Assembly (NCBI GenBank): GCA_013076295.1
Contig: RQOL01000828.1
Location: 310,001 to 374,000 of the forward strand
Length of the DNA: 64,000 bases
From: Sanderia malayensis
Taxonomy: Eukaryota; Cnidaria; Scyphozoa; Semaeostomeae; Pelagiidae
Direction: 5' to 3'
Part shown: piece after piece, positions 1-62,596 of the stretch
How positions within the stretch are numbered: position 1 is the stretch's first letter
Layout of the letters: each line of letters opens with the position of its first letter
Program-made: the position numbers and the translations under genes
Notes under the pieces: generated by a model
The model's input: only the letters and a program-made list of their open reading frames with translations
Told to the model about the DNA's origin: nothing
Database searches by the model: none

Positions 1-78
1 GAAGTGTACTCTTTTGTAATATAATGCCTTTTTTGTATGCATAAATGCAAATGAACAACAATATAATCTCAAAATAGA

Positions 79-150
79 TGGAGGAGCAGGGTTTAGAAGC
101 CTGGGCCTCTCGCATGCTAACCGAGAACTCTACCACTGAGCTACACCCCC
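79..150 (-). tRNA. tRNA-Ala(AGC)-like, cassette type A
   Basis: 72 nt with anticodon AGC in loop TTAGCAT and G3-U70 kept. Mismatches at the anticodon stem closing pair (G31-G39) and the top of the T stem weaken it. The T loop is altered (TTCTAAA), which breaks the B box. Possibly a pseudogene. Confidence 0.65.
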
Positions 151-249
151 GATGAGATAGTAAACTCTAGAAGTGAAAGCTTTTGTAAGTTAACGCCTTT
201 TCGTAAATGCATAAGTTCAAATAACTTAAGAAACTAATCTCAAAACATA

Positions 250-321
250 TGCAGGAGCAGGGTTTCCAACCCTGGGCTTCTAGCATGCGAAGAGAACACT
301 CTACCACTGAGCTGCACCCCG
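250..321 (-). pseudogene. tRNA-Ala(CGC)-like, cassette type B
   Basis: Anticodon CGC in loop TTCGCAT. The anticodon stem (TTCTC against GCTAG) has two mismatches and the acceptor end is poorly paired (C1, G71). This type recurs throughout the left array with the same defects, so it spreads as a repeat and not under selection as a tRNA. Confidence 0.65.
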
Positions 322-420
322 GATGAGCTATCAAACTCAACCAGTCAAAGTTTCTGTAACTTAACACCCTTTCTTGTATGCATAATTGCAAATAAACAAT
401 CAAAAAAATCTCAAAATTGA

Positions 421-492
421 TGGAGGGACAGGGTTTCGAGAACTGGGCTTCTGGCATGCAATGCCAGCGCCCTACCACTGAGCTACACCCCC
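421..492 (-). tRNA. tRNA-Ala(TGC)-like, cassette type C
   Basis: Anticodon TGC in loop ATTGCAT, held by a perfectly paired stem (CTGGC with GCCAG). G3-U70 is present. The T stem has two mismatches next to the loop and position 67 is C opposite U6. Confidence 0.65.
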
Positions 493-760
493 AACGAGCT
501 ATGAAGCTCTAGAAGTGTACTCTTTTGTAATATAATGCCTTTTTTGTATGCATAAATGCAAATGAACAACAATATAATCTCAAAATAGATGGAGGAGCAG
601 GGTTTCCAACCCTGGGCTTCTAGCATGCGAAGAGAACACGCTACCACTGAGCTGCACCTCCGATGAGCTGTTAATCTCAAGCAGTCAAAGTTTCTGTAAC
701 TTGAAGCCATTTCTTGTATGCATAATTGCTAATAAACAATCAAAATAATCACAAAATAGA

Positions 761-832
761 TGGAAGAGCAGGGTTTCGAACCCTGGGCCTCTCGCATGCT
801 AAGCGAGCACTCTACCACTGAGCTACACCCCC
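761..832 (-). tRNA. tRNA-Ala(AGC)
   Basis: Complete 72-nt cloverleaf. The anticodon stem CTCGC/GCGAG and the T stem are perfect, with the canonical TTCGAAA loop. The acceptor has G3-U70 plus an extra G4-U69 wobble. One of the best units of the left region. Confidence 0.8.
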
Positions 833-1443
833 AACGAGCTATGAAGCTCTAGAAGTGAACGCTTTTGCAAGTTAACGCCTTCTCATTTATGCATAAGTTC
901 AAATAACTTTTGAAACTAATCTTAAAACATATTCACGAACAGAGTTTCCAACCCTGGGCTTCTAGCATGCTAGGAGAGCTCTCTAATATTGAGCTGCACC
1001 CCGGAAGAGCTATCAAACTCAAGCAGTCAAAGTTTCTGTAACTTAACGCACTTTCTTGTATGCATAATTTCAAATAAACAATCAATATAATCTCAAAATA
1101 AATGGAGGAGTAGGGTTTCCAACCCTGGGCTTCTAACATGCTAGGAGAGCACTCTACCACTGAGCTGCACCCCTGATGAGCTATTCAACTCAAGCAGTCA
1201 AAGTTTCTGTAACTTAACGCCATTTCGTGTATGCATAATTGCTAATAAACAATCAAAATAATCTCAAGATAGATGGCAGAGCAGGGTTTCAAACCCTGGG
1301 CTTCTAACATGCTAGGAGAGCACTCTACCACTGAGCTGCACCCCTGATGAGCTATTAAATCAAGGAGTCAACGTTTCTGTAACTTAACGCCATTTCGTGT
1401 ATGCATAATTGCTAATAAACAATCAAAATAATTTCAAAATAGA

Positions 1444-1515
1444 TGGCAGAGCAGGGTTTCAAACCCTGGGGCTCTCGCATTCGAAGCCAGCGCTCTACCA
1501 CTGAGCTACACCCCC
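1444..1515 (-). tRNA. tRNA-like with Ser anticodon (CGA)
   Basis: The loop reads TTCGAAT, giving anticodon CGA (Ser UCG) in an alanine-type body. Position 70 is G, so the alanine identity pair is lost here. G29-G41 mismatch in the anticodon stem. The D and T stems are well formed. Confidence 0.6.
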
Positions 1516-2124
1516 AATGAGCTATGAATCCTAGAAGTCAACGCTTTTGTAACTTAATGACTTTTTTGTATGCATAAATGCAAATGAACAATCAATATAG
1601 TCTCAAAATAAATTTAGGAGCAGGATATCGAACCCTGGGGCTCTCGCATGCGAAGCCATCGCTCTACCACTCAGGTACACCCGCAACGAAGTATGAAGCT
1701 CTAGAAGTGAACGCTTTTGTAATTTAATGCCTTTTTTTGTATGCATAAATGCGAATGAACAACAACATAATCTCAAAATAGATGGAGGAGCAGGGTTTCG
1801 AAGCCTGGGCCTCTCCCATGCTAACCGAGAACTCTACCACTTAGCTACACCCCCGATGAGATAGTAAACTCTAGCAGTGAAAGCTTTTGTAAGTTAACGC
1901 CTTTTCGTAAATGCATAAGTTCAAATAACTTAGGAAACTAATCTCAAAACATATGCAGGAGCAGGGTTTCCATCCCTGGGCTTCTGGCATGGAAAGAGAA
2001 CACTCTGCCACCGAGCTGCACCCCGGATGAGCTTTGAAACTTAAACAGTCAAAATTTCGTAACTTAACGCCATTTATTGTATGCAAAAAATGCAAATAAA
2101 CAATCAAAATATTCTCAACATTGA

Positions 2125-2196
2125 TGGAAGAGCAGGGTTTCAAACCCGGTGCCTCTCGCATCCTACGCGAGCACTCTACAACTGAGCTACACCCCC
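2125..2196 (-). tRNA. tRNA-like with Pro anticodon (AGG)
   Basis: The anticodon stem CTCGC/GCGAG is perfect with loop GTAGGAT, giving AGG (Pro CCU). G3-U70 is retained. One mismatch in the T stem, and the D loop is AGTTGTA. Confidence 0.6.
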
Positions 2197-2635
2197 CAAC
2201 GAGCTATGAAGCTCTAGAAGTGAACGCTTTTGTAATTTAATGACTTTTTTGTATGCATAAATGCAAATGAACAATCAATATAATCTCAAACTAGATGGAA
2301 GAGCCGGGTTTCGAAGCCTGGGCCTCTCGCATGCTAACCGAGAACTCTACCACTTAGCTACACCCCCGATGAGATAGTAAACTCTAGCAGTGAAGGCTTT
2401 TGTAAGTTAACGCTTTTTCGTACATGCATAAGTTCAAATAACTTATGAAACTAATCTCTAAACATATTCAGGAGCAGGGTTTCCAACCCTGGGCATCTAG
2501 CATGCGAAGAGAACACTACCACTGAGCTGCACCCCAGATGAGCTATCAAACTCAACCAGTCAAAGTTTCTGTAACTTAACACCCTTTCTTGTATGCATAA
2601 TTGCAAATAAACAACCAAAATAGTCTCAAAATTGA

Positions 2636-2707
2636 TGGAGGGACAGGGTTTCGAAACCTGGGCTTCTGGCATGCAATGCCAGCGCCCTACCACTGAGCTA
2701 TACCCCC
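2636..2707 (-). tRNA. tRNA-Ala(TGC)
   Basis: Cassette type C with a better T stem (one mismatch) and A7 pairing with U66. The anticodon arm is perfect with TGC. U6-C67 remains mismatched. Confidence 0.7.
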
Positions 2708-3658
2708 AACGAGCTATGAAGCTCTAGAAGTGTACTCTTTTGTAATATAATGCCTTTTTTGTATGCATAAATGCAAATGAAGAACAATATAATCTCAAAA
2801 TAGATGGAGGAGCAGGGTTTAGAAGCCTGGGCCTCTCGCATGCTAACCGAGAACTCTACCACTTAGCTACACCCCCGATGAGATAGTAAACTCTAGCAGT
2901 GAAAGCTTTTGTAAGTTAACGCCTTTTCGTAAATGCATAAGTTCAAATAACTTAAGAAACTAATCTCAAAACATATGCAGGAGCAGGGTTTCCAACCCTG
3001 GGCTTCTAGCATTCGAAGAGAACACTCTACCACTGAGCTGCACCCCGGATGAGCTATCAAACTCAACCAGTCAAAGTTTCTGTAACTTAACACCCTTTCT
3101 TGTATGCATAATTGCAAATAAACAATCAAAATAATCTCAAAATTGATGGAGGGACAGGGTTTTCTAAAACTGGGCTTCTGGCATGCAATGCCAGCGCCCT
3201 ACCACTGAGCTACACCCCCAACGAGCTATGAAGCTCTAGAAGTGTACTCTTTTGTAATATAATGCCTTTTTGGTATGCATAAATGCAAATGAACAACAAT
3301 ATAATCTCAAAATAGATGGAGGAGCAGGGTTTCGAAGCCTGGGCTCCTCGCATGCTAACCGAGAACTCTACCACTGAGCTACACCCCCGATGAGATAGTA
3401 AACTCTAGCAGTGAAAACGTTTGTAAGTTAACGCCTTTTCGTAAATGCATAAGTTCAAATAACTTAAGAAACTAATCTCAAAACATATGCAGGAGCAGGG
3501 TTTCCAACCCTGGGCTTCTAGCATGCGAAGAGAACACGCTACCACTGAGCTGCACCTCCGATGAGCTGTTAATCTCAAGGAGTCAAAGTTTCTGTAACTT
3601 AACGCCATTTCTTGTATGCATAATTGCTAATAAACAATCAAAATAACCACAAAATAGA

Positions 3659-3730
3659 TGGAAGAGCAGGGTTTCGAACCCTGGGCCTCTCGCATGCTAA
3701 GCAAGCACTCTACCACTGAGCTACACCCCC
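3659..3730 (-). tRNA. tRNA-Ala(AGC)
   Basis: Near-consensus unit. The anticodon stem carries a U29-G41 wobble and the acceptor G3-U70 and G4-U69. The T arm is perfect with an intact B box. Confidence 0.78.
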
Positions 3731-6700
3731 AACGAGCTATGAAGCTCTAGAAGTGAACGCTTTTGTAAGTTAACGCCTTCTCATTTATGCATAAGTTCAA
3801 ATAACTTTTGAAACAAATCTTAAAATATATTCACGAACAGAGTTTCCAACCCTGGGCTTCTAGCATGCTAGGAGAGCTCTCTACTATTGAGCTGCACCCC
3901 GGAAGAGCTATCAAACTCAAGCAGTCAAAGTTTCTGTAACTTAACGCACTTTCTTCTTTGCATAATTTCAAATAAACAATCAATATAATCTCAAAATAGA
4001 TGGAGGAGTAGGGTTTCCAACCCTGGGCTTCTAGCATGCTAGGAGAGCACTCTAAAATTGAGCTGCACCCCGGATGAGCTATCAAACTCAACCAGTCAAA
4101 GTTTCTGTAACTTAACACCCTTTCTTGTATGCATAATTGCAAATATACAATCAAAATAATCTCAAAATTGATGGAGGGACAGGGTTTCGAAAACTGGGCT
4201 TCTGGCATGCAATGCCAGCGCCCTACCACTGAGCTACACCCCCAACGGGCTATGAAGTTCTAGAAGTGTACTCTTTTGTAATATAATGCCTTTTTTGTAT
4301 GCATAAATGCAAATGAACAACAATATAATCTCAAAATAGATGGAGGAGCCGGGTTTCGAAGCCTGGGCCTCTCGCATGCTAACCGAGAACTCTACCACTT
4401 AGCTACACCCCCGATGAGATAGTAAACTCTAGCAGTGAAGGCTTTTGTAAGTTAACGCCTTTTCGTATATGCATAAGTTCAAATAACTTATGAAACTAAT
4501 CTCTAAACATATTCAGGAGCAGGGTTTCCAACCCTGGGCATCTAGCATGCGAAGAGAACACTACCACTGAGCTTACCCCAGATGAGCTATCAAACTCAAC
4601 CAGTCAAAGTTTCTGTAACTTAACACCCTTTCTTGTACGCATAATTGCAAATAAACAACCAAAAAAATCTCAAAATTGATGGAGGGACAGGGTTTCGAAA
4701 CCTGGGCTTCTGGCATGCAATGCCAGCGCCCTACCACTGAGCTACACCCCCAACGAGCTATGAAGCTCTAGAAGTGTACTCTTTTGTAATATAATGCCTT
4801 TTTTGTATGCATAAATGCAAATGAACAACAATATAATCTCAAAATAGATGGAGGAGCAGGGTTTAGAAGCCTGGGCCTCTCGCATGCTAACCGAGAACTT
4901 TACCACTGAGCTACACCCCCGATGAGATAGTAAACTCTAGCAATGAAAGCTTTTGTAAGTTAACGCCTTTTCGTAAATGCATAAGTTCAAATAACTTAAG
5001 AAACTAATCTCAAAACATATGCAGGAGCAGGGTTTCCAACCCTGGGCTTCTAGCATGCGAAGAGAACACTAACACTGAGCTGCACCCCAGATGAGCTATC
5101 AAACTCAACCAGTCAAAGTTTCTGTAACTTAACACCCTTTCTTGTATGCATAATTGCAAATATACAATCAAAATAATCTCAAAATTGATGGAGGGACAGG
5201 GTTTCGAAAACTGGGCTTCTGGCATGCAATGCCAGCGCCCTACCACTGAGCTACACCCCCAACGGGCTATGAAGTTCTAGAAGTGTACTCTTTTGTAATA
5301 TAATGCCTTTTTTGTATGCATAAATGCAAATGAACAACAATATAATCTCAAAATAGATGGAGGAGCCGGGTTTCGAAGCCTGGGCCTCTCGCATGCTAAC
5401 CGAGAACTCTACCACTTAGCTACACCCCCGATGAGATAGTAAACTCTAGCAGTGAAGGCTTTTGTAAGTTAACGCCTTTTCGTATATGCATAAGTTCAAA
5501 TAACTTATGAAACTAATCTCTAAACATATTCAGGAGCAGGGTTTCCAACCCTGGGCATCTAGCATGCGAAGAGAACACTACCACTGAGCTGCACCCCAGA
5601 TGAGCTATCAAACTCAACCAGTCAAAGTTTCTGTAACTTAACACCCTTTCTTGTACGCATAATTGCAAATAAACAACCAAAAAAATCTCAAAATTGATGG
5701 AGGGACAGGGTTTCGAAACCTGGGCTTCTGGCATGCAATGCCAGCGCCCTACCACTGAGCTACACTCCCAACGAGCTATGAAGCGCTAGAAGTGTACTCT
5801 TTTGTAATATAATGCCTTTTTTGTATGCATAAATGCAAATGAACAACAATATAATCTCAAAATAGATGGAGGAGCAGGGTTTAGAAGCCTGGGCCTCTCG
5901 CATGCTAACCGAGAACTCTACCACTGAGCTACACCCCCGATGAGATAGTAAACTCTAGCAATGAAAGCTTTTGTAAGTTAACGCCTTTTCGTAAATGCAT
6001 AAGTTCAAATAACTTAAGAAACTAATCTCAAAACATATGCAGGAGCAGGGTTTCCAACCCTGGGCTTCTAGCATGCGAAGAGAACACTCTACCACTGAGC
6101 TGCACCCCGGATGAGCTATCAAACTCAACCAGTCAAAGTTTCTGTAACTTAACACCCTTTCTTGTATGCATAATTGCAAATAAACAATCAAAATAATCTC
6201 AAAAGTGATGCAGGGACAGGGTTTCGAAAACTTGGCTTCTGGCATGCAATGCCAGCGCCCTAGCACTGAGCTACACCCCCAACGAGCTATGAAGCTCTAG
6301 AAGTGTACTCTTTTGTAATATAATGCCTTTTTTGTATGCATAAATGCAAATGAACAACAATATAATCTCAAAATAGATGGAGGAGCAGGGTTTCGAAGCC
6401 TGGGCCCCTCGCATGCTAACCGAGAACTCTACCACTGAGCTACACCCCCGATGAGATAGTAAACTCTAACAGTGAAAACTTTTGTAAGCTAACGCCTTCT
6501 CATTTATGCATAAGTTCAAATAACTTTTGAAACTAATCTTAAAACATATTCACGAACAGAGTTTCCAACCCTGGGCTTCTAGCATGCTAGGAGAGCTCTC
6601 TACTATTGAGCTGCACCCCGGAAGAGCTATCAAACTCAAGCAGTCAAAGTTTCTGTAACTTAACGCACTTTCTTGTATGCATAATTTCAAATAAACAATC

Positions 6701-8761
6701 AATATAATCTCAAAATAGATGGAGGAGTAGGGTTTCCAACCCTGGGCTTCTAACATGCTAGGAGAGCACTCTACCACTGAGCTGCACCCCTGATGAGCTA
6801 TTCAACTCAAGCAGTCAAAGTTTCTGTAACTTAACGCCATTTCGTGTATGCATAATTGCTAATAAACAATGAAAATAATCTCAAAATAGATGGCAGAGCA
6901 GGGTTTCAAACCCTGGGCTTCTAACATGCTAGGAGAGCACTCTACCACTGAGCTGCACCCCTGATGAGCTATCAAACTCAACCAGTCAAAGTTTCTGTAA
7001 CTTAACACCCTTTCTTGTATGCATAATTGCAAATAAACAATCAAAATAATCTCAAAATTGATGGAGGGACAGGGTTTCGAAAACTGGGCTTCTGGCATGC
7101 AATGCCAGCGCCCTACCACTGAGCTACACCCCCAACGAGCTATGAAGCTCTAGAAGTGTACTCTTGTAATATAATGCCTTCTTTGTATGCATAAATGCAA
7201 ATGAACAACAATATAATCTCAAAATAGATGGAGGAGCAGGGTTTCGAAGCCTGGGCCTCTCGCATGCTAACCGAGAACTCTACCACTTAGCTACACCCCC
7301 GATGAGATAGTAAACTCTAGCAGTGAAAGCTTTTGTAAGTTAACGCCTTTTCGTAAATGCATAAGTTCAAATAACTTAGGAAACTAATCTCAAAACATAT
7401 GCAGGAGCAGGGTTTCCAACCCTGGGCTTCTAGCATGCGAAGAGAACACTCTACCACTGAGCTGCACCCCCGATGAGCTGTTAATCTCAAGCAGTCAGGG
7501 TTTCTGTAACTTAACGCCATTTCGTGTATGCATAATTGCTAATAAACAATCAAAATAATCACAAAATAGATGGAAGAGCAGGGTTTCCAACCCTGGGCTT
7601 CTAGCATGCTAGGAGAGCACTCTAAAATTGAGCTGAACCCCGGATGAGCTATCAAACTCAACCAGTCAAAGTTTCTGTAACTTAACACCCTTTCTTGTAT
7701 GCATAATTGCAAATATACAATCAAAATAATCTCAAAATTGATGGAGGGACAGGGTTTCGAAAACTGGGCTTCTGGCATGCAATGCCAGCGCCCTACCACT
7801 GAGCTACACCCCCAACGAGCTATGAAGCTCTAGAAGTGTACTCTTTTGTAATATAATGCCTTTTTTGTATGCATAAATGCAAATGAACAACAATATAATC
7901 TCAAAATAGATGGAGGAGCCGGGTTTCGAAGCCTGGGCCTCTCGCATGCTAACCGAGAACTCTACCACTTAGCTACACCCCCGATGAGATAGTAAACTCT
8001 AGCAGTGAAGGCTTTTGTAAGTTAACGCCTTTTCGTATATGCATAAGTTCAAATAACTTATGAAACTAATCTCTAAACATATTCAGGAGCAGGGTTTCCA
8101 ACCCTGGGCATCTAGCATGCGAAGAGAACACTACCACTGAGCTGCACCCCAGATGAGCTATCAAACTCAACCAGTCAAAGTTTCTGTAACTTAACACCCT
8201 TTCTTGTATGCATAATTGCAAATAAACAACCAAAATAATCTCAAAATTGATGGAGGGACAGGGTTTCGAAACCTGGGCTTCTGGCATGCAATGCCAGCGC
8301 CCTACCACTGAGCTACACCCCCAACGAGCTTTGAAGCTCTAGAAGTGTACTCTTTTGTAATATAATGCCTTTTTTCTATGCATAAATGCAAATGAACAAC
8401 AATATAATCTCAAAATAGATGGAGGAGCAGGGTTTCGAAGCCTGGGCCCCTCGCATGCTAACCGAGAACTCTACCACTGAGCTACACCCCCGATGAGATA
8501 GTAAACTCTAACAGTGAAAACTTTTGTAAGTTAACGCCTTTTCGTAAATGCATAAGTTCAAATAACTTAAGAAACTAATCTCAAAACATATGCAGGAGCA
8601 GGGTTTCCAACCCTGGGCTTCTAGCATGCGAAGAGAACGTGCTACCACTGAGCTGCACCTCCGATGAGCTGTTAATTTCAAGGACTCAAAGTTTCTGTAA
8701 CTTGAAGCCATTTCTTGTATGCATAATTGCTAATAAACAATCAAAATAATCACAAAATAGA

Positions 8762-8833
8762 TGGAAAAGCAGGGTTTCGAACCCTGGGCCTCTCGCATGC
8801 TAAGGGAGCACTCTACCACTGAGCTACACCGCC
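8762..8833 (-). pseudogene. Degenerate tRNA-Ala(AGC), marker unit of the 11/8-unit repeat
   Basis: Acceptor GGCGGTG against CTTTTCC has C3-U70 and other mispairs, so alanine identity is lost. The anticodon stem has CTCCC opposite GCGAG. The same defective unit recurs at 10,635, 11,996, 13,360 and 14,721, one per higher-order copy, showing co-amplification of a non-functional gene. Confidence 0.7.
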
Positions 8834-16224: not shown

Positions 16225-16242
16225 GAACAACAATATAATCTC

Positions 16243-50873: not shown

Positions 50874-50954
50874 ACGATCGTTTTTTGTTATTTTTATAAT
50901 CTTATAGCTACTTATCATTGTTATGTTACGTAGTTTTTGGTCTCATCGTAGAGC

Positions 50955-52485: not shown

Positions 52486-52583
52486 AACGAGCTATGAAGC
52501 TCTAGAAGTGAACGCTTTTGTAATTTAACTCCTTCTTTTGTATGCATAAATGCAAAGGAACAACAATGTAATCTCAAAATAGA

Positions 52584-52655
52584 TGGAGGAGCAGGGTTTC
52601 GAACCCTGGGCCTCTCGCATGCTAAGCGAGCACTCTGCCACTGAGCTACACCCCC
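52584..52655 (-). tRNA. tRNA-Ala(AGC)
   Basis: Consensus with a D-loop U to C change (AGTGGCA). G3-U70, intact A and B boxes, all stems paired except U6-U67. Confidence 0.85.
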
Positions 52656-53094
52656 GATGAGATAGTAATCTCTAGCAGTGAAAGCTTTTGTAAGTTAACG
52701 CCTTTTCGTATATGCATAAGTTCAAATAACGTAGGAAACTAATCTCAAAACATATGCAGGTGCAGGGTTTCCAACCCTGGGCTTCTAGCATGCGAAGAGA
52801 ACACTCTACCACTGAGCTGCAGCCCCGATGATCTATTAAACTCAAGCAGTGAAAGTTTCTGTAACTTAACGCCATTTCTTGTACGCATAATTGCAAATAA
52901 ACAATAAAAATAATCTCAAAATAGATGGAAGAGCAGGTTTTCAAACCCTGGGCCTCTCGCATGCTAAGCGAGCACTCTACCACTGAGCTACAGGCCCAAC
53001 TTGCTATGAATTTCTAGAAATGAACGCTTTTGAATTTTAATGCCTTTTTGTATGAATAGATGCAAGTTAACAATCAATATCATCTAAACATACA

Positions 53095-53159
53095 TGGCGG
53101 AGCAGGCTTTTGAACCCTGGGCCTCTCGCATGAGCGTTCTACAACTGAGCTGCACCCCC
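53095..53159 (-). pseudogene. 65-nt anticodon-deleted tRNA-like unit
   Basis: Same deletion class, with an additional acceptor change (GGCGGAG on the plus strand). Confidence 0.73.
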
Positions 53160-53604
53160 AATGAGCCATGAAGCTCTAGAAGTGAAAGCTTTTGTAATTT
53201 AATGCCTATTTTTCTATGCATAAATGCAAATGAACAATCAATATTATCTCAAAATAGGTAGAGGAGGAAGGTTTTGAACCCTGGGCTTCTAGCATGCAAA
53301 GAGAACACTCTACCAATGAGCTGCACCCCCGATGAGCCATTAAACTCAAGCCGTCAAAGTTTCTGTAACTTAACGCCCTTTCTTATATGCATAATTGCAA
53401 ATAAACAATCAAAATAATCTCAAAATAGATGGAGGAGCACGGTTTCGAACACTGGGCCTCTCGCATACAATGCAAGCGCTCTACCACTGAGCTACACCCC
53501 TAACGAGCTACGAAGTTCTAGAAGTGAACGCTTTTGTAATTTAATTCCTTCTTTTGTATGCATAAATGCAAAGGAACAACAATATAATCTCAAAATAGAT
53601 GGAG

Positions 53605-53634
53605 GAGCAGGGATTCGAACCCTGAGCTACACCC
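53605..53634 (-). pseudogene. Internally deleted mini-tRNA unit
   Basis: The acceptor 3' strand and T arm (GCAGGGATTCGAACCCTG on the plus strand) join directly to the D-arm 5' side and acceptor (AGCTACACCCCC). The anticodon arm, variable loop and half of the D arm are missing. The CCCTG / CACTGAGC similarity may have guided the deletion. Confidence 0.65.
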
Positions 53635-54715
53635 CCGATGAGATAGTAAACTCTAGCAGTGAAGGCTTTTGTAATTTAACGCCTTTTGGTATATGCATAA
53701 TTGCTAACAAACCATAAAATTAATCTCAAAATAGATGGAAGAGCAGGGTTTTGAACATTGAGCTGCACCCCGGATGAGGTATAAGACTCAAGCAGTCAGG
53801 GTTTCTGTAACTTAACGCCCTTTCTTGTATGCATAATTGCAAATAGACAATCAAAATAATCTGAAAATAGGTGGAGGAGCAGGGTTTCGAACTCTGGGCC
53901 TCTCGCATGCAAAGCAAGCGTTCTATCACTGAGCTACACCCCCGATGAGATATTAAACTCTAGCAGTGGGAGTTTTTGTAAGTTAACGCCTTCTCAAAAT
54001 TCAAATAAATTATATAACTAATCTCAAAACATATTCAGGAGCAAGGATTCCAACCCTGGGCTTCTTGCAAGCTAGGAGAGCACTCTACTATTGAGCTGCA
54101 CCCCGGATGAGCTATAAGACTCAAGCAGTCAGAGTTTCTGTAACTTAACGCCCTTTCTTATATGCATAATTGCAAATAAACAATCAAAATAATCTCAAAA
54201 TGGATGGAGGAGCAGGGTTTCGAACACGGGGCCTCTCGCATACAATGCAAGCGCTCTACCACTGAGCTACACCCCTAACGAGCTATCAAGCTCTAGAAGT
54301 GAACGCTTTTGTAATTTAATTCCTTCTTTTGTATGCATAAATGCAAAGGAACAACAATATAATCTCAAAATAGATGGAGGAGGAGGGTTTCGAACCCTGT
54401 GCCTCTTGCATGCTAAGCGAGCACTCTACCACTGAGCTACATCCCCGATGAGATAGTAAACTCTAGCAGTGAAAGCTTTTGTAAGTTAACGCCATTTCGT
54501 ATATGCATAAGTTCAAATAACTTGGAAACTAATCTCAAAACATATGCAGGAGCAGCGTTTCCAACCCTGGGCTTCTAGCATGCGAAGAGAACACTCTACC
54601 ACTGAGCTGCACCCCCGATGAGCTATTAAACTCAAGCAGTCAAAGTTTCTGTAACTTAACGCCATTTCTTGTATGCATAATTGCTAATAAACCATAAAAA
54701 TAATCTAAACATAGA

Positions 54716-54787
54716 TGGAAGAGCAGGGTTTCAAACCCTGGGGCTTTCGCATGCGAAGCCAGCGCTCTACCACTGAGCTACACCCCC
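54716..54787 (-). tRNA. tRNA-Ala(CGC)-like
   Basis: Loop TTCGCAT gives CGC. The D stem GCTC/GAGC is perfect and the T stem is perfect with loop TTTGAAA. G29-G41 and C27-A43 mispair the anticodon stem. G3-U70 and G4-U69 in the acceptor. Confidence 0.68.
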
Positions 54788-54884
54788 AACGAGCTATGAA
54801 GCCTAGTAGTCGACGCTTTTGTACTTTAATGCCTTTTTTGTATGCATAAATGCAAATGAACAATCAATATAATCTCACAATTAA

Positions 54885-54956
54885 TTTAGGAGCAGGGTTT
54901 CGAACCCTGGGGCTCTCGCATGCGAAGCCAGCGCTTTACCACTAAGCTACACCCCC
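54885..54956 (-). tRNA. tRNA-Ala(CGC)-like
   Basis: CGC anticodon with a perfect T arm and B box. Acceptor positions 71-72 are A-A, unpaired with G1-G2. Confidence 0.6.
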
Positions 54957-55158
54957 CAATAAGCTATGAAGCTCTAGAAGTGAACGCTTTTGTAATTTAA
55001 TGCCCTTTTTTGTATGCATAAACGCAAATGAACAACAATATAATCTCAAAAATATGCAGGAGCAGGGTTTCGAACCCTGGGCTTCTAGCATGCGAAGAGA
55101 ACACTCTACCACCGAGCTGCACCCCCGATGATCTATTAAACTCAAGCAGTCAAAGTTT

Positions 55159-55519
55159 GTTAAGTTAAGTCCTGGGTATGACGTTAAACTACAACCGGTG
55201 GTAAGGCTCCAGTTTATAAGTTCTGGAGTTGTGGGGAAGATGGAGTAACCCCTTAATTACCATTACTCCCAGGTCCATCCTGGCTCGGGGTGGTAGTACC
55301 TGTCTGGGCCCCAACTATGGGTCAAATAGCGGAGTACACCCAATGAGGTCGTCACCTCTAGTGTATGTAGACTGAAGCGGCAGTGGTGGCAGTGATCACC
55401 GAAGGCGCGACAGCAAAGATGTGTGGCACATCTAGGGCACTTTCTTGACGCATAGAGTCTTGTGGCCAGCCACCGTGGAAGAGATTAGGGCCTCACCACG
55501 TATCAACCTATAGTTAACC
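55159..55519 (+). other. LINE 5' UTR
   Basis: GC-richer than the array and unrelated to it. It presumably carries the element's own internal promoter, but I recognise no motif. It leads to the ATG at 55,520 in the context AACCATGG, close to a good animal start context. Confidence 0.6.
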
Positions 55520-58459
55520 ATGGATTCTAATAAAGGTGTAAATAGTTATACAGACGAAGTTGAGCCCCCTGCGACTGACTCTGTTATAAATAGCTACTGG
55601 GAAGAAAATAGTGCATCTGGTAGTAATAGGGCAACTAATCGTAAGGACGGTTATAATGACGGTGGTAATCTCAATCCGCAAGGAGGATCATCACCCGAAA
55701 CAGTTTGTCTGAAAACCAGAGATAATATTTTACGGATAGCAACATGGAATGTACGAACGCTATACCAGGATGGTAATATCGAAAATTTAATACAAGAAGT
55801 GGAAGAAATGAGACTGGATATAACAGGCATAGCAGAGGTGCGATGGACAGATGCAGGTATAATGGCTAAGGATGATTACACAATCATGTACAGTGGTGGA
55901 GAGGAACACAGGAATGGCGTTGCATTCATTATAAATAAGAATGTAAAGAGATCACTATTAGGTTTTTGGCCTATATCGGAACGTGTCGCAGTAATGAAAC
56001 TAGAAGGCAAGCCGTTCAACATTGCGTTGATTCAGGTGTATACTCCTACCAGTGACTACTCAGACGAGGATATTGATATATTTTATGAAAGCATACAGAA
56101 GGCGATAAAGCATGCGAAATCGGATGACATCATGTTTGTGATGGGAGACATGAATGCGAAAGTTGGATCAAAGAGATATGGCAGCATAGTAGGCTCATAT
56201 GGTTTGGGTGAGATAAACCCAAGAGGTGAGCGGCTCATTGAATTTTGCGATCGAAACAACCTCGCGATAATGAACACGTGGTTCCAACAGCCAAGGCGTC
56301 GCCTATATACATGGAGCAGCCCAGACGGTGTGACACGCAATCAAATTGATTACATCATGGTAAGACAGCGCTTCAGGAACTGTGTACAACAAGTAAAGAC
56401 GTACCCTGGGGCAGACGTCGGCTCGGATCACAATCCTGTCGTAATGAGGGTTAAAATCAAGCTGAAGAAAATTCAGAAACCAAAAATCATGCCAAGATAC
56501 GACATGAATTTGTTGAGAGATGGTACCATTAGAGAACGATTTGGTGTTGCGGTAAGAAACATGTACGAAAGTTTTAACGTGGAGTGCGATACTAAACAAT
56601 CGGTTGAAGGTGCCATCGACCAAAAGTGGTGTAATATTAGAGATAGTATGAAGAAAACAACAGAAGAACTGATTCTGAGGAAGGAGAACAAGGCAAAACA
56701 ACCATGGATGAAAGATCACATACTACAGCTTATGACCGAAAGAAAGCAGAACAAATGTAATGAATCAAAATACCGCGAGTTCAACAAGAAAATCAAAGTC
56801 GCCTGTAAAAAGGCAAAGGAGGAGTGGCTAGATGAGAGGTGTAGAGAAATTGAAGAGTTGGATAAGATCGGACGGACAAGACAAATGTATGACAAAGTAA
56901 AGGAACTGACTAGCGGTAAAAAGATGGGGGTTTATCAATCCGGAATAAATGACAAAAATGGTGAAGCATTATTTGACAAAGAAGACATCAAGAAGAGATG
57001 GGTTGAATACATCGGCGAGCTTTATGATGATGACCAAGGTGATATACCGACCGTGAGCAATCTGGAGGGACCATGTATTCTGCATTCTGAAGTTGAGCAA
57101 GCTATCAAAGAGTTGAAATGTGGGAAAGCTGGTGGAGAAGATGAAATTACCGCCGAAATGTTGAAGGCATTAGATAATGCAGGAACAAAGATACTGGTAG
57201 AGATATGCAATATGATATACAATACGGGGTATCTACCAGAAGATCTCCTAAGATCAATCTTTATAACACTGCCAAAGAAACCGAAGGCTATGAACTGTCA
57301 AGATTTTAGAACTATAAGCTTGATGAGTGTCATGATAAAGCTTATTCTGAAAATTATTCTCAAACGCATAAATAGTAAAATTGAGAGTAAAGTCGGAGAG
57401 ACGCAGAGTGGCTTCCGGGAACAGAAGGGAACTCGGGATGCGATCTATAATCTGAGAATGATAGGAGAGAGATATCTAGAAAAGCAGAAAGATGTATACG
57501 TCTGTTTTATTGATTACCAAAAAGCATTCGATCGTGTAAGCCATCAAAAAGTAGTGAAGTGTCTTCAAGGGATTGGAGTGGATGGTAAAGACTTGCGTGT
57601 TCTTATCAACTTATACTGGAAACAGAAAGCCGTCGTGCGGACGGATGGAGGCCTGTCAGCAGAGATTCCCATAAAGAGAGGTGTTCGACAAGGTTGTGTC
57701 ATCTCACCGAGCCTGTTTAACCTCTACACAGAATACATTTTTAGAGAAATTGTTGAAATCAAGGGTGTTGTTATTGGTGGTCGTTCAACGAACAGTCTTA
57801 GATATGCAGATGACACTGCTTTGTTGGCAGAAACTGAGGAAGAACTGCAAGAGATAATTGATACCATAAACCGGGTGGGAATTGAGCATGGGATGGTCAT
57901 CAATGTCAGAAAGACCAAAACAATGGTCATCAGCAGGAAGGAGGTTGTACCAAAAGTTACGATCCATGTTAAAGGAGACAAACTGGAACAAGTGCAAAAG
58001 TTTGTGTATCTAGGTCATATGATCACGGAAGATGGAAAATGTGAAACTGAAATAAAAAGACGTATTGAAATAGCAAGATCTGCAATTAATCAAATGAAAG
58101 CACTAATTGTTTCGGGAAAGATATCTGTGAAAGTTAGAATACGTTTGGCTAAGTGCTACATTTGGTCTACACTGATGTACGGAGCTGAGGCATGGACAAT
58201 TAGTAAGGTGATGCAGACAAAACTGGAGGCTTTTGAAATGTGGATCTACCGCAGAATAATGAAAGTGCCGTGGACAGCAAAGAAAAGTAATGTGGAAGTT
58301 CTCACCCTTGTGAATGAAAGGAGGAAGCTAATGGGCATGATAAAAGAACGAAAATTGAAGTACCTCGGTCACATTTTACGACATCCATGTCTTGGAAAGG
58401 AACTATGCGAAGGAATGGTAAATGGTAAACGCGGGAGAGGAAGACCTAGACTGAAGTGA
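55520..58459 (+). CDS. LINE ORF: endonuclease and reverse transcriptase
   Basis: 979 codons. The N-terminal 70 residues are low in recognisable features. An exonuclease/endonuclease/phosphatase domain spans about 71-312, with N77 (TWNVRT), E106 (AEVRW), D210 and N212 (GDMNAK), D277 (NQIDYIM) and the catalytic pair D303-H304 (GSDHNPV). A linker rich in charged helices follows. Reverse transcriptase lies at about 560-830, with FIDYQKAFD, the GVRQGCVISPSLFN turn and YADD at 762-765. The C-terminal region has the LGHILRH and GKRGRGRP motifs typical of this group. The enzyme would nick target DNA and prime reverse transcription from the nick. The ORF ends at a TGA, but the same frame stays open for 39 more codons to 58,577 and encodes the usual W-rich tail, so this TGA looks like a point-mutation stop. 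Confidence 0.93.
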   Translation: MDSNKGVNSYTDEVEPPATDSVINSYWEENSASGSNRATNRKDGYNDGGNLNPQGGSSPETVCLKTRDNILRIATWNVRTLYQDGNIENLIQEVEEMRLDITGIAEVRWTDAGIMAKDDYTIMYSGGEEHRNGVAFIINKNVKRSLLGFWPISERVAVMKLEGKPFNIALIQVYTPTSDYSDEDIDIFYESIQKAIKHAKSDDIMFVMGDMNAKVGSKRYGSIVGSYGLGEINPRGERLIEFCDRNNLAIMNTWFQQPRRRLYTWSSPDGVTRNQIDYIMVRQRFRNCVQQVKTYPGADVGSDHNPVVMRVKIKLKKIQKPKIMPRYDMNLLRDGTIRERFGVAVRNMYESFNVECDTKQSVEGAIDQKWCNIRDSMKKTTEELILRKENKAKQPWMKDHILQLMTERKQNKCNESKYREFNKKIKVACKKAKEEWLDERCREIEELDKIGRTRQMYDKVKELTSGKKMGVYQSGINDKNGEALFDKEDIKKRWVEYIGELYDDDQGDIPTVSNLEGPCILHSEVEQAIKELKCGKAGGEDEITAEMLKALDNAGTKILVEICNMIYNTGYLPEDLLRSIFITLPKKPKAMNCQDFRTISLMSVMIKLILKIILKRINSKIESKVGETQSGFREQKGTRDAIYNLRMIGERYLEKQKDVYVCFIDYQKAFDRVSHQKVVKCLQGIGVDGKDLRVLINLYWKQKAVVRTDGGLSAEIPIKRGVRQGCVISPSLFNLYTEYIFREIVEIKGVVIGGRSTNSLRYADDTALLAETEEELQEIIDTINRVGIEHGMVINVRKTKTMVISRKEVVPKVTIHVKGDKLEQVQKFVYLGHMITEDGKCETEIKRRIEIARSAINQMKALIVSGKISVKVRIRLAKCYIWSTLMYGAEAWTISKVMQTKLEAFEMWIYRRIMKVPWTAKKSNVEVLTLVNERRKLMGMIKERKLKYLGHILRHPCLGKELCEGMVNGKRGRGRPRLK

Positions 58460-58579
58460 AGTGACAACATCACAAAATGGACTGACAAGTCGTATGCGGA
58501 ATGCTCGCGGATAGCGAGTGACCGCAATAGATGGCGATCCATGGTAGCCAACTTCCTACCGGAGGGGGCACCCAGATGA
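58460..58579 (+). pseudogene. LINE ORF tail beyond a premature TGA
   Basis: In-frame continuation of the LINE ORF after the TGA at 58,457-58,459, with DNITKWTDKSY and RNRWRSMVANFL, ending at a TGA at 58,577-58,579 next to the GATGAT tail. Conservation of the frame up to the element end supports a single recent nonsense change. Confidence 0.75.
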
Positions 58580-58826
58580 TGATGAGTTTCTGTAACTTAA
58601 TGCCATTTCTTGTACGCATAATTGCAAATAAACAATAAAAATAATCTAAAAATAGATGGAAGAGCAGGTTTTCAAACCCTGGGCGTCTCGCATGCTAAGC
58701 GAGCACTCTACCACTGAGCTACAAGCACAACTTGCTATGAATCCCTAGAAGTGAACGCTTTTGTAATTTAATGCCCTTTTTTGTATGCATAAATGCAAAA
58801 AAACAACAATATAATCTCAAAATAGT

Positions 58827-58898
58827 TGGAGGAGCAGGGCTTCGAACCCTGGGCCTCTCGCATGGTAAGCGAGCACTCTACCACTGAGCTACACCCCC
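58827..58898 (-). tRNA. tRNA with Gly anticodon (ACC) in an alanine body
   Basis: Acceptor with G3-U70, D stem, anticodon stem CTCGC/GCGAG and T stem CAGGG/CCCTG are all intact (U6-U67 only). The loop is TTACCAT, giving anticodon ACC (Gly GGU). It differs from the consensus unit mainly by G35C36 to C35C36. Because AlaRS reads G3-U70 and not the anticodon, charging with alanine is expected if it is expressed. Confidence 0.78.
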
Positions 58899-59506
58899 GA
58901 TGAGATAGTAAACTCTAGCAGTGAAAGCTTTTGTAAGTTAACGCTTTTTCGTATATGCATAGGTTCGAATAACTTATGAAACTAATCTCAAAACATATTA
59001 AGGAGCAGGGTTTCAAACCCTGGGCTTCTATCATGCTAGGAGAGCACTCTACCAATGAGCTGCACCCCGGATGAGCTATCAAACTCAAGCAGTCAAAGTT
59101 TCTGTAACTTAACGCCATTTCTTGTATGCATAATTGCTAATAAACCATAAAATTAATCTCAAAATAGATGGAAGAGCGGGGTTTCGAACAGTGGCCTTCT
59201 CGCATGCGATGCCAGCGCCGCTCCACTGAGCTACACCCCGAACAAGCTATGAAGCCTAGAAGTCAACGCACTTGTAATTTAATGCCTTTTTTGTATGCAT
59301 AAATGCAAATGAACAACATTATAATCTCAAAATAGATGGAGGCGCAGGGTTTCAAACCCAGGGCCTCCCGCATACAAAGCCAGCGCTCTGCCGCTGAGCT
59401 ACACCCCCAACGAGCTCTGAAGTTCAAGATTTCAGCGCGTTTTAAATTTAATGCCTATTGTTTATGTATAAATGCAAATGAACAATCAAGATAATCTCCA
59501 AACATA

Positions 59507-59571
59507 TGAGGGAGCAGGGTTTCGATTCCTGGGCCTCTTGCATGAGCGTTCTACCACTAAGCTACACCCCC
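59507..59571 (-). pseudogene. 65-nt anticodon-deleted tRNA-like unit
   Basis: Same deletion length, but the surrounding body differs from the 30-53 kb members (T loop variant, plus-strand CTCTTGCATGAGC), so the class is older than the block duplications. Confidence 0.7.
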
Positions 59572-59670
59572 AACGAGCTATGAATCCCTAGAAGTGAACG
59601 CTTTTGTAATTTAATGCCTTATTTTCAATGCATAAATGCAAATAAACAATGAATATAATCTCAAATCAGA

Positions 59671-59742
59671 TGAAGGAGCAGGGTTTCGAACACTGGGCTT
59701 CTCGCATGAAATGCCAGCGCTCTACCACTGGGCTACACCCCC
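59671..59742 (-). tRNA. tRNA-like with Glu anticodon (TTC)
   Basis: Loop ATTTCAT gives TTC (Glu GAA). G3-U70 is present and G2-U71 wobbles. Mismatches at C12-A23 in the D stem, G29-G41 in the anticodon stem and one in the T stem make function doubtful. Confidence 0.6.
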
Positions 59743-59976
59743 AACGAGTTATGAAGCTCTAGAATTTAGCGCGTTTTTATTTTAATGCCTATTTTTATGC
59801 ATAAATGCAAATGAACAATCAATATAATCTCAAAACATATGAAGAAGCAAGGCGTTCTACAACTGAGCTGCACCCCCAAAGAGCTATGAAGCTCTAGAAG
59901 TCAACGCTTTTGTAATTTAATGGCCGTTTTTGTATGCATAAATGAAAATGAACAATCAATATAATCTTAAAAAAAA

Positions 59977-60048
59977 TTTAGGAGCAGGGTTTCGAAGCCT
60001 GGGGCTCTCGCATTCGAAGCCAGCGCTCTACCACTGAGCTACACCCCC
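59977..60048 (-). tRNA. tRNA-like with Ser anticodon (CGA)
   Basis: Loop TTCGAAT gives CGA. G3-U70 is present, but A71 and A72 do not pair. G29-G41 and C53-C61 mismatches. Confidence 0.6.
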
Positions 60049-60314
60049 AACAAGCTATGAAGCCTAGAAGTCAACGCTTTTGTAATTTAATGCCCTTTTT
60101 TGTATGCATAAATGCAAAAGAACAACAATATAGTCTCAAAATAGTTGGAGGAGCAGGGCTTCCAACCCTTGGCCGCTCGCATGCTAAGCCAGCGCTCTAC
60201 CACTAAGCTACACCCCCAACGAGCTATGAATCCCTAGAAGTGAACGCTTTTGTAATTTAATGCCCTTTTTGTATGCATAAATGCAAAAGAACAACAATAT
60301 AATCTTAAAATAGT

Positions 60315-60386
60315 TGGAGGAGCAGGGCTTCCAACCCTGGGCCTCTCGCATGCTAAGCGAGCACTCTACCACTGAGCTACACCCCC
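60315..60386 (-). tRNA. tRNA-Ala(AGC)
   Basis: Perfect acceptor (apart from U6-U67), D and anticodon arms. The T loop is TTGGAAG, so the B-box C is replaced by G, which should impair TFIIIC binding. Confidence 0.7.
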
Positions 60387-60824
60387 GATGAGATAGTAAA
60401 CTCTAGCAGTCAAAGTTTCTGTAACTTAACGCCATTTCTTGTATGCATAATTGCTAATAAACCATAAAAATAATCTCAAAATAGATGGTAGAGCAGGGTT
60501 TCAAACCCTGGGGCTCTCGCATGCGAAACCAGCGCTCTACCACTGAGCTGCAACCCCGATGAGCGATTAAACTCAAGCAGTCAAAGTTTCTGTAACTTAA
60601 CGCCATTTTTTGTATGAATAATTGCTAATAAACCATAAAATTAATCTCAAAATAGATGGAAGAGCAGGGATTCGAACAGTGGCCTTCTCCCATGCGATGC
60701 CAGCGCTCCTCCACTGAGCTACACCCCGAACAAGCTATGAAGCCTAGAAGTCAACGCACTTGTAATTTAATGCCTTTTTTGCATGCATAAATGCAAATGA
60801 ACAACAATATAATCTCAAAATAGA

Positions 60825-60896
60825 TGGAGGCGCAGGGTTTCAAACCCTGGGTCTCTCGCATACAAAGCCAGCGCTCTACCGCTGAGCTACACCCCC
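60825..60896 (-). tRNA. tRNA with Thr anticodon (TGT) in an alanine body
   Basis: Best Thr-anticodon unit. The acceptor is fully paired, with G3-U70 and U6-G67. The D stem GCTC/GAGC and T stem are perfect (loop TTTGAAA). Loop TTTGTAT gives TGT. Only G29-G41 is mispaired. Confidence 0.72.
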
Positions 60897-60995
60897 AACG
60901 ATCTATGAAGTTCAAGATTTCAGCGCGTTTTTAATTTAATGCCCTTTTTTCAACGCATAAATGCAAATAAACAATCAATATAATCTCAAATCAGA

Positions 60996-61067
60996 TGGAG
61001 GAACAGGGTTTCGAACCCTGGGTCTCTCGCATGCTAAGCGAGCTCTCTAACACTGAGTTACACCCCC
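60996..61067 (-). tRNA. tRNA-Ala(AGC)
   Basis: Anticodon and T arms are perfect with an intact B box. A10 and A25 break the D stem, and G7-U66 wobbles. Confidence 0.7.
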
Positions 61068-61336
61068 GATGAGAATGTAAACTCTAGCACTGAAGGCTTT
61101 TGTAAGCTAGCGCCTTTTCGCAGATGCATAAGTTCAAATAACTTCTGAAACTAATCTCAAACATATTCACGAGCAGGGTTTCCAGCCCTTGGCTTCTAGC
61201 ATGCTAAAAGAACGCTCTACCATTGAGCTGCACCCCGGAAGAGCTTCCAAACTCAAGCAGTCAAAATTTCTGTAACTTAACGCCATTTCTTGTATGCATA
61301 ATTGCAAATAAACAACCAAAATAATCTCAAAATAGA

Positions 61337-61408
61337 TTGAGGAGCAAGGTTTCGAACACTGGGCTTCTGGCATGCAATGCCAGCGCTCTACCACTGAGCT
61401 ACACCCCC
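61337..61408 (-). tRNA. tRNA-Ala(TGC)
   Basis: Anticodon stem CTGGC/GCCAG is perfect with loop ATTGCAT. D stem perfect, G3-U70 present. A72 leaves the first pair open, and the T stem has one mismatch. Confidence 0.7.
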
Positions 61409-61505
61409 AACCAGCTATGAACCCTAGAAGTAAACGCTTTTGTAATTTAATGCCTTTTTTGTATGCATAAATGCAAATGAACAATCAATATAATCTCAAA
61501 AAAAA

Positions 61506-61577
61506 TTTTGGAGCAGGGTTTCGAGCCCTGGGTCTCTCGCATTCGAAGCCAGCGCTCTACCACTGAGCTACACCCCC
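61506..61577 (-). tRNA. tRNA-like with Ser anticodon (CGA)
   Basis: T arm perfect with loop CTCGAAA; loop TTCGAAT gives CGA. Acceptor 70-72 is AAA, so both alanine identity and the end pairs are lost. Confidence 0.58.
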
Positions 61578-61845
61578 AACGAGCTATGAAGCTCTAGAAG
61601 TGATCTCTTTTGTAATTTAATGCCGTTTTTTGTATGCATAAATGCAAATGAACAATCAATAGAATCTCAAAATAGATGGAGGAGCAGGCTTTTGAACCCT
61701 GCGCCTCACGCATACAAAGCCAGCGCTCTACCAATGAGCTACACCCCCAACGAGCTATGAAGCTCTAGAATTCAGCGCGTTTTTAATTTAATGCCTACTT
61801 TGTATGCATAAAAGCAAATGAACAACAGTAGAATCTCAGAATAGA

Positions 61846-61917
61846 TCGAGGAGCAGCGTTTCGAGCCCTGGGCCTCTCGCAAGCTAAGCAAGCACTCTAC
61901 CACTGAGCTACACCCCC
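61846..61917 (-). tRNA. tRNA-Ala(AGC)-like
   Basis: Loop TTAGCTT with U29-G41 wobble. G1-G72 and one T-stem mismatch. Confidence 0.62.
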
Positions 61918-62186
61918 AATGAGATAGTAAACTCTAGCAGTGAAGGCTTTTGTAAGTTAACGCCTTCTCGTATATGCATAAGTTCAAATAACTTATGAAA
62001 CTAATCTCAAAACATATTCAGGAGCAGGGTTTCCAACCCTGGCTTCTTGCATGCTAGGAAAGTACTCTACCATTGAGCTGCACCCCCGATGAGCTATTAA
62101 ACTCAAGCAGTCAAAGTTTCTGTAACTTAACGCCATTGCTTGTATGCATAATTGCAAATAAACAATCAAAATAATCTAAAAATAGA

Positions 62187-62258
62187 TGGAAGAGCAGGTT
62201 TTCAAACCCTAGGCCTCTCGCATGCTAAGCGAGCACTCTACCACTGAGCTACACCCCC
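62187..62258 (-). tRNA. tRNA-Ala(AGC)
   Basis: Anticodon and D arms are consensus. The T loop TTTGAAA and a mismatch at 53-61 weaken the B box. Confidence 0.68.
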
Positions 62259-62357
62259 AACCAGCTATGAAGCTCTAGACGTGAAAACTTTTGTAATTTA
62301 ATGACTTTTTTTGTATGCATAAATGCAAATGAACAATAAAAATAATCTCAAAATAGA

Positions 62358-62429
62358 TGGAGGAGCAGGGTTTCGAACACGGGGCCTCTCGCATCCTAAG
62401 CGAGCACTCTACCACTGAGTTACACCCCC
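62358..62429 (-). tRNA. tRNA-like with Pro anticodon (AGG)
   Basis: Perfect anticodon stem CTCGC/GCGAG with loop TTAGGAT gives AGG. The D stem ACTC/GAGT is fully paired by A10-U25. G3-U70 is present. Two T-stem mismatches. Confidence 0.66.
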
Positions 62430-62596
62430 GATGAGATAGTAAACTTTAGCAGTGAAAGCTTTTGTAAGTTAACACCTTTTCGTATATGCATAAGCTCAAG
62501 TAACTTAGGAAATTAATCTCAAAACATATGCAGGGCAGGGTTTTCAACCCTGGGCTTCTAGCATGCGAAGAGAACACTCTGCCACTGAGCTGCACC

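Follow-up and report, generated by a model that had tools for sequence, protein, structure and literature searches.

The window analysed here comprises 64,000 nucleotides of the genome of the scyphozoan Sanderia malayensis (contig RQOL01000828.1, hereafter C781, positions 310001-374000). Between positions 79 and 62596 it carries 324 non-overlapping tRNA-Ala-like bodies, as counted with an nhmmer profile of the bodies themselves, of which 293 are near full length and all lie on the minus strand. Approximately 55 kb of repeat DNA is left after two transposon inserts are taken off (Table 1), and TRF reported 268.5 copies of a 171-bp period at 11-45623 (76% match) as well as additional blocks up to 62596. 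The first-pass annotation had described a 55-kb satellite of about 320 units derived from alanine-tRNA genes, spaced at approximately 170 bp on one strand without any orientation switch, and TRF, the profile count and the body spacing bear this out. The array runs past the window by approximately 40 kb leftward and 59 kb rightward, the right side having further interruptions. As a whole it occupies approximately 164 kb including inserts (C781:269687-433437) and holds 695 bodies, 695/695 on the same strand, with spacing peaks at 171 bp (290), 169 bp (131) and 170 bp (126). Such a long head-to-tail array of a short unit is what is expected of a satellite. TTAGGG was absent from the 1.5 kb at either end of the contig, which gives no indication that the array is subtelomeric.

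Table 1. Features of the window (positions within the 64,000 nucleotides).
Feature	Position	Strand	Evidence and remarks
tRNA-Ala-derived satellite, block 1	1..46788	-	TRF 171-bp period, Rfam/ARAGORN matches, profile body count; extends left to C781:269687
72-base tRNA-Ala(AGC) body, among the best gene-like units	16251..16322	-	Rfam 63.2 bits; 100% identical to C478 array genes; passes the strict test
Tandem duplication, 22-unit block	22404..29702	-	Unit-by-unit comparison; lag 3738 bp, mean divergence 0.0008/site; coordinates are 5' ends of first and last unit
55-unit higher-order repeat	27336..44142	-	Unit-by-unit comparison; lag 9342 bp, 45-unit run, mean divergence 0.0033; coordinates are unit 5' ends
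BEL/Pao retrotransposon fragment inside array	46789..51185	+	Pfam Peptidase_A17, Integrase_H2C2, DUF5641; apparent 3' LTR 50970-51185 (by eye); 5' part not seen
tRNA-Ala-derived satellite, block 2	51186..55158	-	TRF, profile body count
LINE inside array	55159..58584	+	Pfam RVT_1 and Exo_endo_phos; a single 981-codon open frame encodes both endonuclease and reverse transcriptase
tRNA-Ala-derived satellite, block 3	58585..62596	-	TRF, profile body count; array picks up again at C781:379152, outside the window
Left part of apparent BEL/Pao element, ~6.45 kb	62593..64000	-	DUF5641 in minus-strand frame 62978-64000 (Pfam); self-comparison

The LINE has a GAT-repeat tail and, by eye, what looks like a 5-bp target duplication (AGTTT). 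The 366-bp start of the element at the right edge of the window recurs at C781:378680-379044 (97.8%), and we read the two copies as an LTR pair.

Each unit of approximately 171 bp consists of a 72-base tRNA gene followed by a T-run Pol III terminator, with approximately 99 bp from one body to the next. The bodies are recognised by tRNA models: Rfam RF00005 gave 187 matches above the gathering score in the window (best 63.2 bits; all 150 listed on the minus strand), and the possibility raised at the outset that such models might score the bodies as unrelated does not hold. ARAGORN made 138 tRNA calls, all on the minus strand and mostly Ala, with some Ser, Thr, Pro, Leu, Arg, Gly and Glu. Given that these numbers compare with 324 bodies found by the profile, many bodies fall below the thresholds of the tRNA models. 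Among the 318 aligned units of the window, 275 carry an Ala anticodon (AGC 148, CGC 82, TGC 45) and 285 the G3:U70 pair, as befits tRNA-Ala (AGC). Judging from the sequence, the tRNA identity of the bodies is not due to chance. Over the whole locus G3:U70 is found in 626/673 units and an Ala anticodon in 514/673; this retention could be taken as a sign against full decay of the bodies, although common descent suffices as an explanation.

Our analysis revealed three monomer classes (A, B and C), which form an ABC trimer nested in repeats of 22 units (3.74 kb) and 55 units (9.34 kb). ABC triplets occur 32 times in the window, whereas 1000 shuffles gave 3.4 on average and never more than 12. For classes A and B the consensus body is a full-length tRNA-Ala(AGC) that has G3:U70 and both internal promoter boxes (A and B), and TTTT follows within a few bases of its 3' end. 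The class C consensus is broken. Besides the trimer, repeats of 8, 16, 22, 49 and 55 units were found, at many distinct lags. The nested higher-order repeats proposed from the first inspection, an organisation typical of satellites, were thus confirmed by unit-by-unit comparison, which yielded divergences of 0.08% for the recent 22-unit block, 0.33% at the 55-unit lag and 1.2% at the 49-unit lag; a megablast self-comparison (19 rows) had missed repeats that the former comparison later revealed. We infer unequal exchange as the mechanism behind them.

The description of the units as genes, on the other hand, could not be upheld. A strict test was applied, demanding at least 19/20 stem pairs, an Ala anticodon, G3:U70, A box, B box and TTTT, with no gap. 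It was passed by 25/318 aligned window units, all of them AGC and six with all 20 pairs, and by 49/673 units of the whole locus. A perfect B box is present in 59/318 window units, and in 146/673 units of the locus vs. 35/47 in a second, cleaner Ala array on contig C478. Both boxes are kept in 92/673 C781 units, while all 20 pairs together with all signals are found in 15/673, vs. 13/47 on C478. Only 50% of the units retain the C of the B box GGTTCGA, a base that hardly varies among tRNAs. The array is therefore not one in which most units are intact, constrained genes. The least conserved body columns include CpG positions. CpG decay was considered as the cause of body variability and is not claimed, several common stem-pair changes being transversions.

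The comparison of bodies with spacers points in the same direction. Between random C781 units, body divergence is 19% and spacer divergence 22%, and over all pairs of the 673 units the body/spacer divergence ratio is 0.849 (0.82-0.87; window 0.84). In five samples from other arrays of this genome (Lys, Cys and two Arg) it is 0.11-0.26, bodies being approximately 4-9 times less diverged than spacers. Within classes the C781 ratio is 1.50 (A), 1.20 (B) and 1.64 (C), so that the classes with an intact consensus are kept hardly better than the broken one. Part of the excess over 1 could stem from bodies having been exchanged between classes, not from mutation. Among within-class pairs, those with the greatest divergence (spacer 0.15-0.25) give 0.87, 0.76 and 1.00, and some old constraint is thus possible; binning pairs by spacer divergence inflates the ratios of the lowest bins. 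Going by these sequence comparisons, loss of constraint on the tRNA body is the unusual feature of the C781 array.

The comparison with the C478 array, in which 18/47 units pass the strict test, is not a clean one, since its close pairs also give ratios above 1 (2.57 and 2.02; in a second analysis 5.09 and 1.20) and the range of its overall ratio (0.72; 0.56-0.90) extends into that of C781. Values of 0.43-0.69 are confined to its more diverged pairs. The middle section of this array carries 6.66 deleted columns per unit vs. 0.13 in the outer units, which we read as unpolished long-read errors. Among the Ala matches listed (of 366 and of 196, and all 116 of another set), every one lies on C781, in or beside the C478 array, or in one of four single genes. 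The single and flanking genes that were read are TGC (C907, C829, C597 and two beside the C478 array) or CGC (C859 and four beside the C478 array), and no AGC tRNA-Ala gene outside the two arrays was found among the matches listed. It is likely that the C478 array is the main source of tRNA-Ala(AGC). Furthermore, the single-isotype array does not stand alone: in addition to the second Ala array, the genome contains arrays of Lys-TTT, Cys-GCA, Arg-ACG/TCG and Arg-CCT, the last with some Lys-CTT. Periods across the different isotypes are 171, 170-173, 172, 179 and 150 bp, and their spacers gave no mutual match better than E 0.02 (11-base word).

Primate alpha satellite, a centromeric repeat without tRNA origin, likewise has a 171-bp monomer and diverged monomer classes arranged in higher-order repeats. 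The C781 repeat, however, is tRNA-derived, occurs on two contigs (C781 and C478) among the matches listed and shows no sign of a centromere role; the common period is probably a coincidence. Large tRNA clusters are already known from Nematostella, zebrafish and Entamoeba, and the C781 array is a variant of these. Nematostella vectensis is reported to have more than 17000 tDNAs, 89% of them clustered (Bermudez-Santana et al., 2010, PMC2888827). As described there, its clusters and those of teleosts resemble C781 in combining tandem, mostly parallel tRNA genes with pseudogenes, fifty and more per cluster, but neighbouring pairs in Nematostella are mostly of different isotypes, whereas C781 has one isotype, 695 bodies at one locus, monomer classes, higher-order repeats and mostly decayed units. 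In Entamoeba, tRNA genes also form the units of tandem arrays, although these are described as holding as many as five tRNA genes separated by short tandem repeats (PMC2652664), compared with one tRNA per unit in C781. Pike 5S rDNA offers a further example of head-to-tail amplification of Pol III genes, its spacer families forming both homogeneous and mixed blocks; its genes are described as homogeneous and without significant pseudogenisation (PMC5437419), while pseudogenisation dominates in C781. Finally, the human VNTR at 1q23.3 is a tandem repeat containing tRNA genes, but with 7.3-kb units in 9-43 copies (PMC4041453). No comparable tRNA-Ala satellite came up in searches of an open-access library.

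We believe, with good though not full confidence, that unequal exchange expanded a tRNA-Ala(AGC) array at C781 into a satellite in which most units are pseudogenes and a minority has stayed gene-like. A founding unit of approximately 171 bp would have been multiplied head to tail, most likely via unequal crossing-over, until copy number was far above the need of the cell and selection on single copies would have ceased. Most bodies would then have lost the B box, stem pairs or the anticodon, and one monomer class would have died as a class and yet still have been co-amplified. Transposons would also have inserted. Direct observation provides the single strand, the trimer of three diverged classes and the re-amplified blocks of 8 to 55 units. 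The units passing the strict test resemble intact tRNA-Ala(AGC) genes and are possibly transcribed. A possible but rather doubtful alternative is that the array serves as a reserve of functional tRNA-Ala(AGC), e.g., for oocytes or early embryos. It would then stay large since intact units provide an isoacceptor that is needed, the broken units being passengers. The strict-test units, all AGC in the window, fit such a reserve, as do the TGC or CGC anticodons of the Ala genes read outside the arrays among the matches listed, and maternally deposited tRNAs of zebrafish are reported to stem from highly repetitive regions (PMC11417395). However, within-class bodies are not better conserved than spacers, unlike in the samples of other arrays, and the C478 array by itself offers its 18 strict units.

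The remaining readings appear less probable. tRNA genes can serve as barriers, and the array could have a structural or regulatory role, with clustered TFIIIC sites acting as a barrier or insulator, or 171-bp units positioning nucleosomes and marking heterochromatin. The periods of 150-179 bp in different-isotype arrays with unlike spacers would agree with such a role, and the human tRNA tandem repeat has been proposed as a boundary element (PMC4041453). We nevertheless regard it as unlikely, considering how few units keep the B box or both boxes and that satellites often have repeats of nucleosome size; occurrence on two of 918 contigs among the matches listed also speaks against a general centromere repeat, and a general centromere satellite is unlikely. 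It is very improbable that false duplication during assembly accounts for the size of the array, above all for its near-identical blocks of 3.7 kb and 9.3 kb. The small divergence of the 22- and 55-unit repeats would be compatible with this, as would the deletion-rich middle of the C478 array, such as unpolished reads would give. Yet the 224 kb examined contain no gaps (0 N), class A units carry only 0.25 deletions each, the differences between random units are not producible by misassembly, and six interruptions of unequal length and the many distinct lags point to a real history. A tandem array of a tRNA-derived SINE would share the tRNA-like head, the A and B boxes and the many copies, but this origin is extremely improbable and was rejected: TTTT stands directly behind the body in 576/673 units, neither a SINE body nor a LINE-type tail is apparent by eye in the unit consensus, and the matches listed include no dispersed copies, falling on C781 and C478 only.

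The C781 array illustrates clearly how housekeeping genes in tandem can become satellite DNA, and the same genome holds built-in controls in the conserved arrays of other isotypes and the cleaner Ala array. The origin of a satellite from Pol III genes, and the point where selection stops seeing single copies, can thereby be measured. Expression of the intact minority, if it occurs, would mean that satellite-like DNA supplies an essential isoacceptor. By analogy with the maternal tRNA arrays of zebrafish, it is conceivable, though improbable, that the tRNA-Ala(AGC) supply is encoded only in the satellite-like arrays on C781 and C478, the decaying one on C781 being a reservoir of egg or germline type, here in a cnidarian, of which only a small and recently re-amplified minority is used (e.g., 20.8-23.4 and 26.4-27.2 kb of the window). 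Were this true, tRNA satellites would represent a way of providing maternal tRNA that recurs among animals.

The window corresponds to C781:310001-374000 in an assembly of 918 contigs and 184,004,477 bases. A search with a profile of the tRNA body, the 72-base tRNA-like part of a unit, revealed 324 minus-strand bodies in the window; over C781:240001-464000 it revealed 695, with none on the other strand. A single-sequence search returned 691 bodies, from C781:269687 to 433437. The array consists of seven blocks with six interruptions between them, of 3.3 to 13.4 kb each; body-to-body spacing peaks at 169-171 bp, and the joined 224 kb around the array contain 0 N. The aligned unit set comprised 673 C781 units (318 in the window) with a neighbour-body spacing of 140-200 bp; a further 22 bodies, 6 of them in the window, fell outside this range and were therefore not counted as units. 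At the left contig end (C781:1-1500) there is a different tandem repeat (92-bp unit, 16.3 copies, 89% match), in which TTAGGG was not found.

The overall consensus body of the C781 units is a 72-base tRNA-Ala with anticodon AGC and G3:U70, an A box of TAGCTCAGTGG, a B box of GGTTCGAAACC and TTTT a few bases 3' of the body. Its sixth acceptor pair is a U:U mismatch, which the consensus of the second Ala array of the genome, on contig C478, shares. Three main monomer classes were distinguished, namely A (n=158), B (n=158) and C (n=133), plus smaller ones. The consensus bodies of classes A and B are intact, and that of class C is mispaired in both the acceptor stem and the anticodon stem and has its B box replaced by GGTTGGAAACC. 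The order ABC occurs 32 times in the window; 1000 shuffles gave 3.4 on average and never more than 12. Higher-order repeats are listed in the table along with the other tRNA arrays.

Higher-order repeats of the C781 satellite and further tRNA arrays of the genome
Feature	Location	Unit or length	Divergence
22-unit higher-order repeat		3738 bp	0.08%
55-unit higher-order repeat		9342 bp	0.33%
49-unit higher-order repeat		9327 bp	1.2%
16-unit higher-order repeat		2725 bp	0.4%
Second Ala array, cleaner	C478:2636805-2644707		
Lys-TTT array	C817:598687-620156	unit ~170-173 bp	
Cys-GCA array	C675:288739 to at least 310175	unit ~179 bp	
Arg-ACG/TCG array	C726:2899913-2912464	unit ~150 bp	
Arg-CCT array with some Lys-CTT	C616:6611567-6615422	unit 172 bp	

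If the units were working genes, their bodies would be expected to diverge less than the spacers between them. In the Lys, Cys and Arg arrays the bodies of the sampled units are conserved far above the spacers, with body/spacer divergence ratios of 0.22 and 0.12 for Lys-TTT (21 and 7 units), 0.25 for Cys-GCA (8 units), 0.11 for Arg-ACG (12 units) and 0.26 for Arg-CCT (16 units), these being short samples of 7-21 units each. The ratio is 0.849 (0.82-0.87) for the C781 units and 0.844 (0.81-0.88) for those in the window. Within classes it amounts to 1.50 (A), 1.20 (B) and 1.64 (C), and class C, an inner control with a broken consensus, is close to class A. Body exchange between classes probably also contributes to the ratios above 1. 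Among the most diverged within-class pairs the ratio goes down to 0.87, 0.76 and 1.00. Independent pairs drawn from the whole C781 unit set and sorted into bins of total divergence gave, in order of increasing distance, 1.38, 1.15, 1.32, 1.13 and 0.76.

A strict gene test demanded at least 19 of the 20 stem pairs, an Ala anticodon, the G3:U70 pair, an A box, a B box and TTTT, without a gap. In the window 25 of the 318 units passed it, in the C781 locus 49 of the 673 and on C478 18 of the 47; raising it to all 20 pairs left 6, 15 and 13, respectively. The 25 strict window units all carry AGC; repeated blocks at window 20.8-23.4 and 26.4-27.2 kb contain 13 of them. The C478 gene used as a search query is identical over 72 bases to seven C781 bodies. 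The C478 array is thus cleaner than C781 in gene signals. Its overall body/spacer ratio is 0.72 (0.56-0.90), an interval that overlaps that of C781. Close pairs exceed 1 (2.57 and 2.02 in one binning, 5.09 and 1.20 in another) and more diverged pairs fall below it (0.69, 0.62 and 0.43; second binning 0.61 and 0.45). Each bin holds between 2 and 21 pairs, and selection on the C478 array is a claim built on few pairs. Small deletions abound in the middle of this array (6.66 deleted columns per unit versus 0.13 in the outer units, which keep the ~171 bp spacing), and this middle looks like unpolished long-read sequence.

With regard to other tRNA genes, a genome search with RF00005 yielded 15,278 first-look candidates, 63 of which were scored. 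Three Ala searches (at least 366 and at least 196 matches listed, and all 116 in the third) led to C781, to places in or beside the C478 array, or to four single genes. The anticodon is TGC in the genes on C907, C829 and C597 and in two at C478:2632453-2632844, and CGC in the gene on C859, in one at C478:2635570 and in three at C478:2646569-2646984. Since the outlying Ala genes read carry TGC or CGC, no AGC gene was seen beyond the C781 and C478 arrays among the matches listed and the genes read. Spacers of arrays of different isotypes gave no mutual match better than E 0.02. The Arg-CCT query missed its own locus, consistent with the skipping of very common words. In that array of alike units on C616, Lys-CTT anticodons occur amid Arg-CCT in 2 of the 6 genes of one sample and 2 of the 17 of another, possibly an anticodon shift inside the array.

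Large tRNA clusters are already known. Nematostella has more than 17,000 tDNAs, 89% of them clustered, in clusters of fifty and more; these are mostly of mixed isotypes (PMC2888827), whereas the C781 array is of a single isotype. In zebrafish eggs and early embryos, isodecoders derive from highly repetitive regions (PMC11417395), and pike 5S genes, unlike the C781 units, underwent higher-order amplification without significant pseudogenisation (PMC5437419). In the portions available to us, these three papers do not describe a tRNA satellite that is built from one isotype, falls into monomer classes and has lost constraint. The main text of the genome paper on the jellyfish Sanderia malayensis holds no word beginning with tRNA (PMC7305137).

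The array is also interrupted by transposons. A LINE at window 55159-58584 has an unbroken 981-codon endonuclease/reverse-transcriptase frame, a GAT tail and an apparent target duplication, and may perhaps be a recent insertion; a EukProt protein matches it at 100% across 55% of the query. A likely BEL/Pao element of ~6.45 kb spans window 62593 to C781:379044, with 366-bp ends 97.8% alike, and the insert separating the last array blocks (C781:424001-434000) contains BEL-like, non-LTR reverse-transcriptase-like and THAP-like frames, as judged by eye.

As to its origin, a tandem tRNA-Ala array probably expanded on one strand by unequal crossing-over, after which three monomer lineages would have diverged to form the recurrent trimer, with late re-amplification of 8- to 55-unit blocks. 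Selection on single copies would have lapsed, with tRNA still supplied by the array on C478 and perhaps by a few units of C781. The transposon insertions are consistent with a locus where insertions cause little harm.
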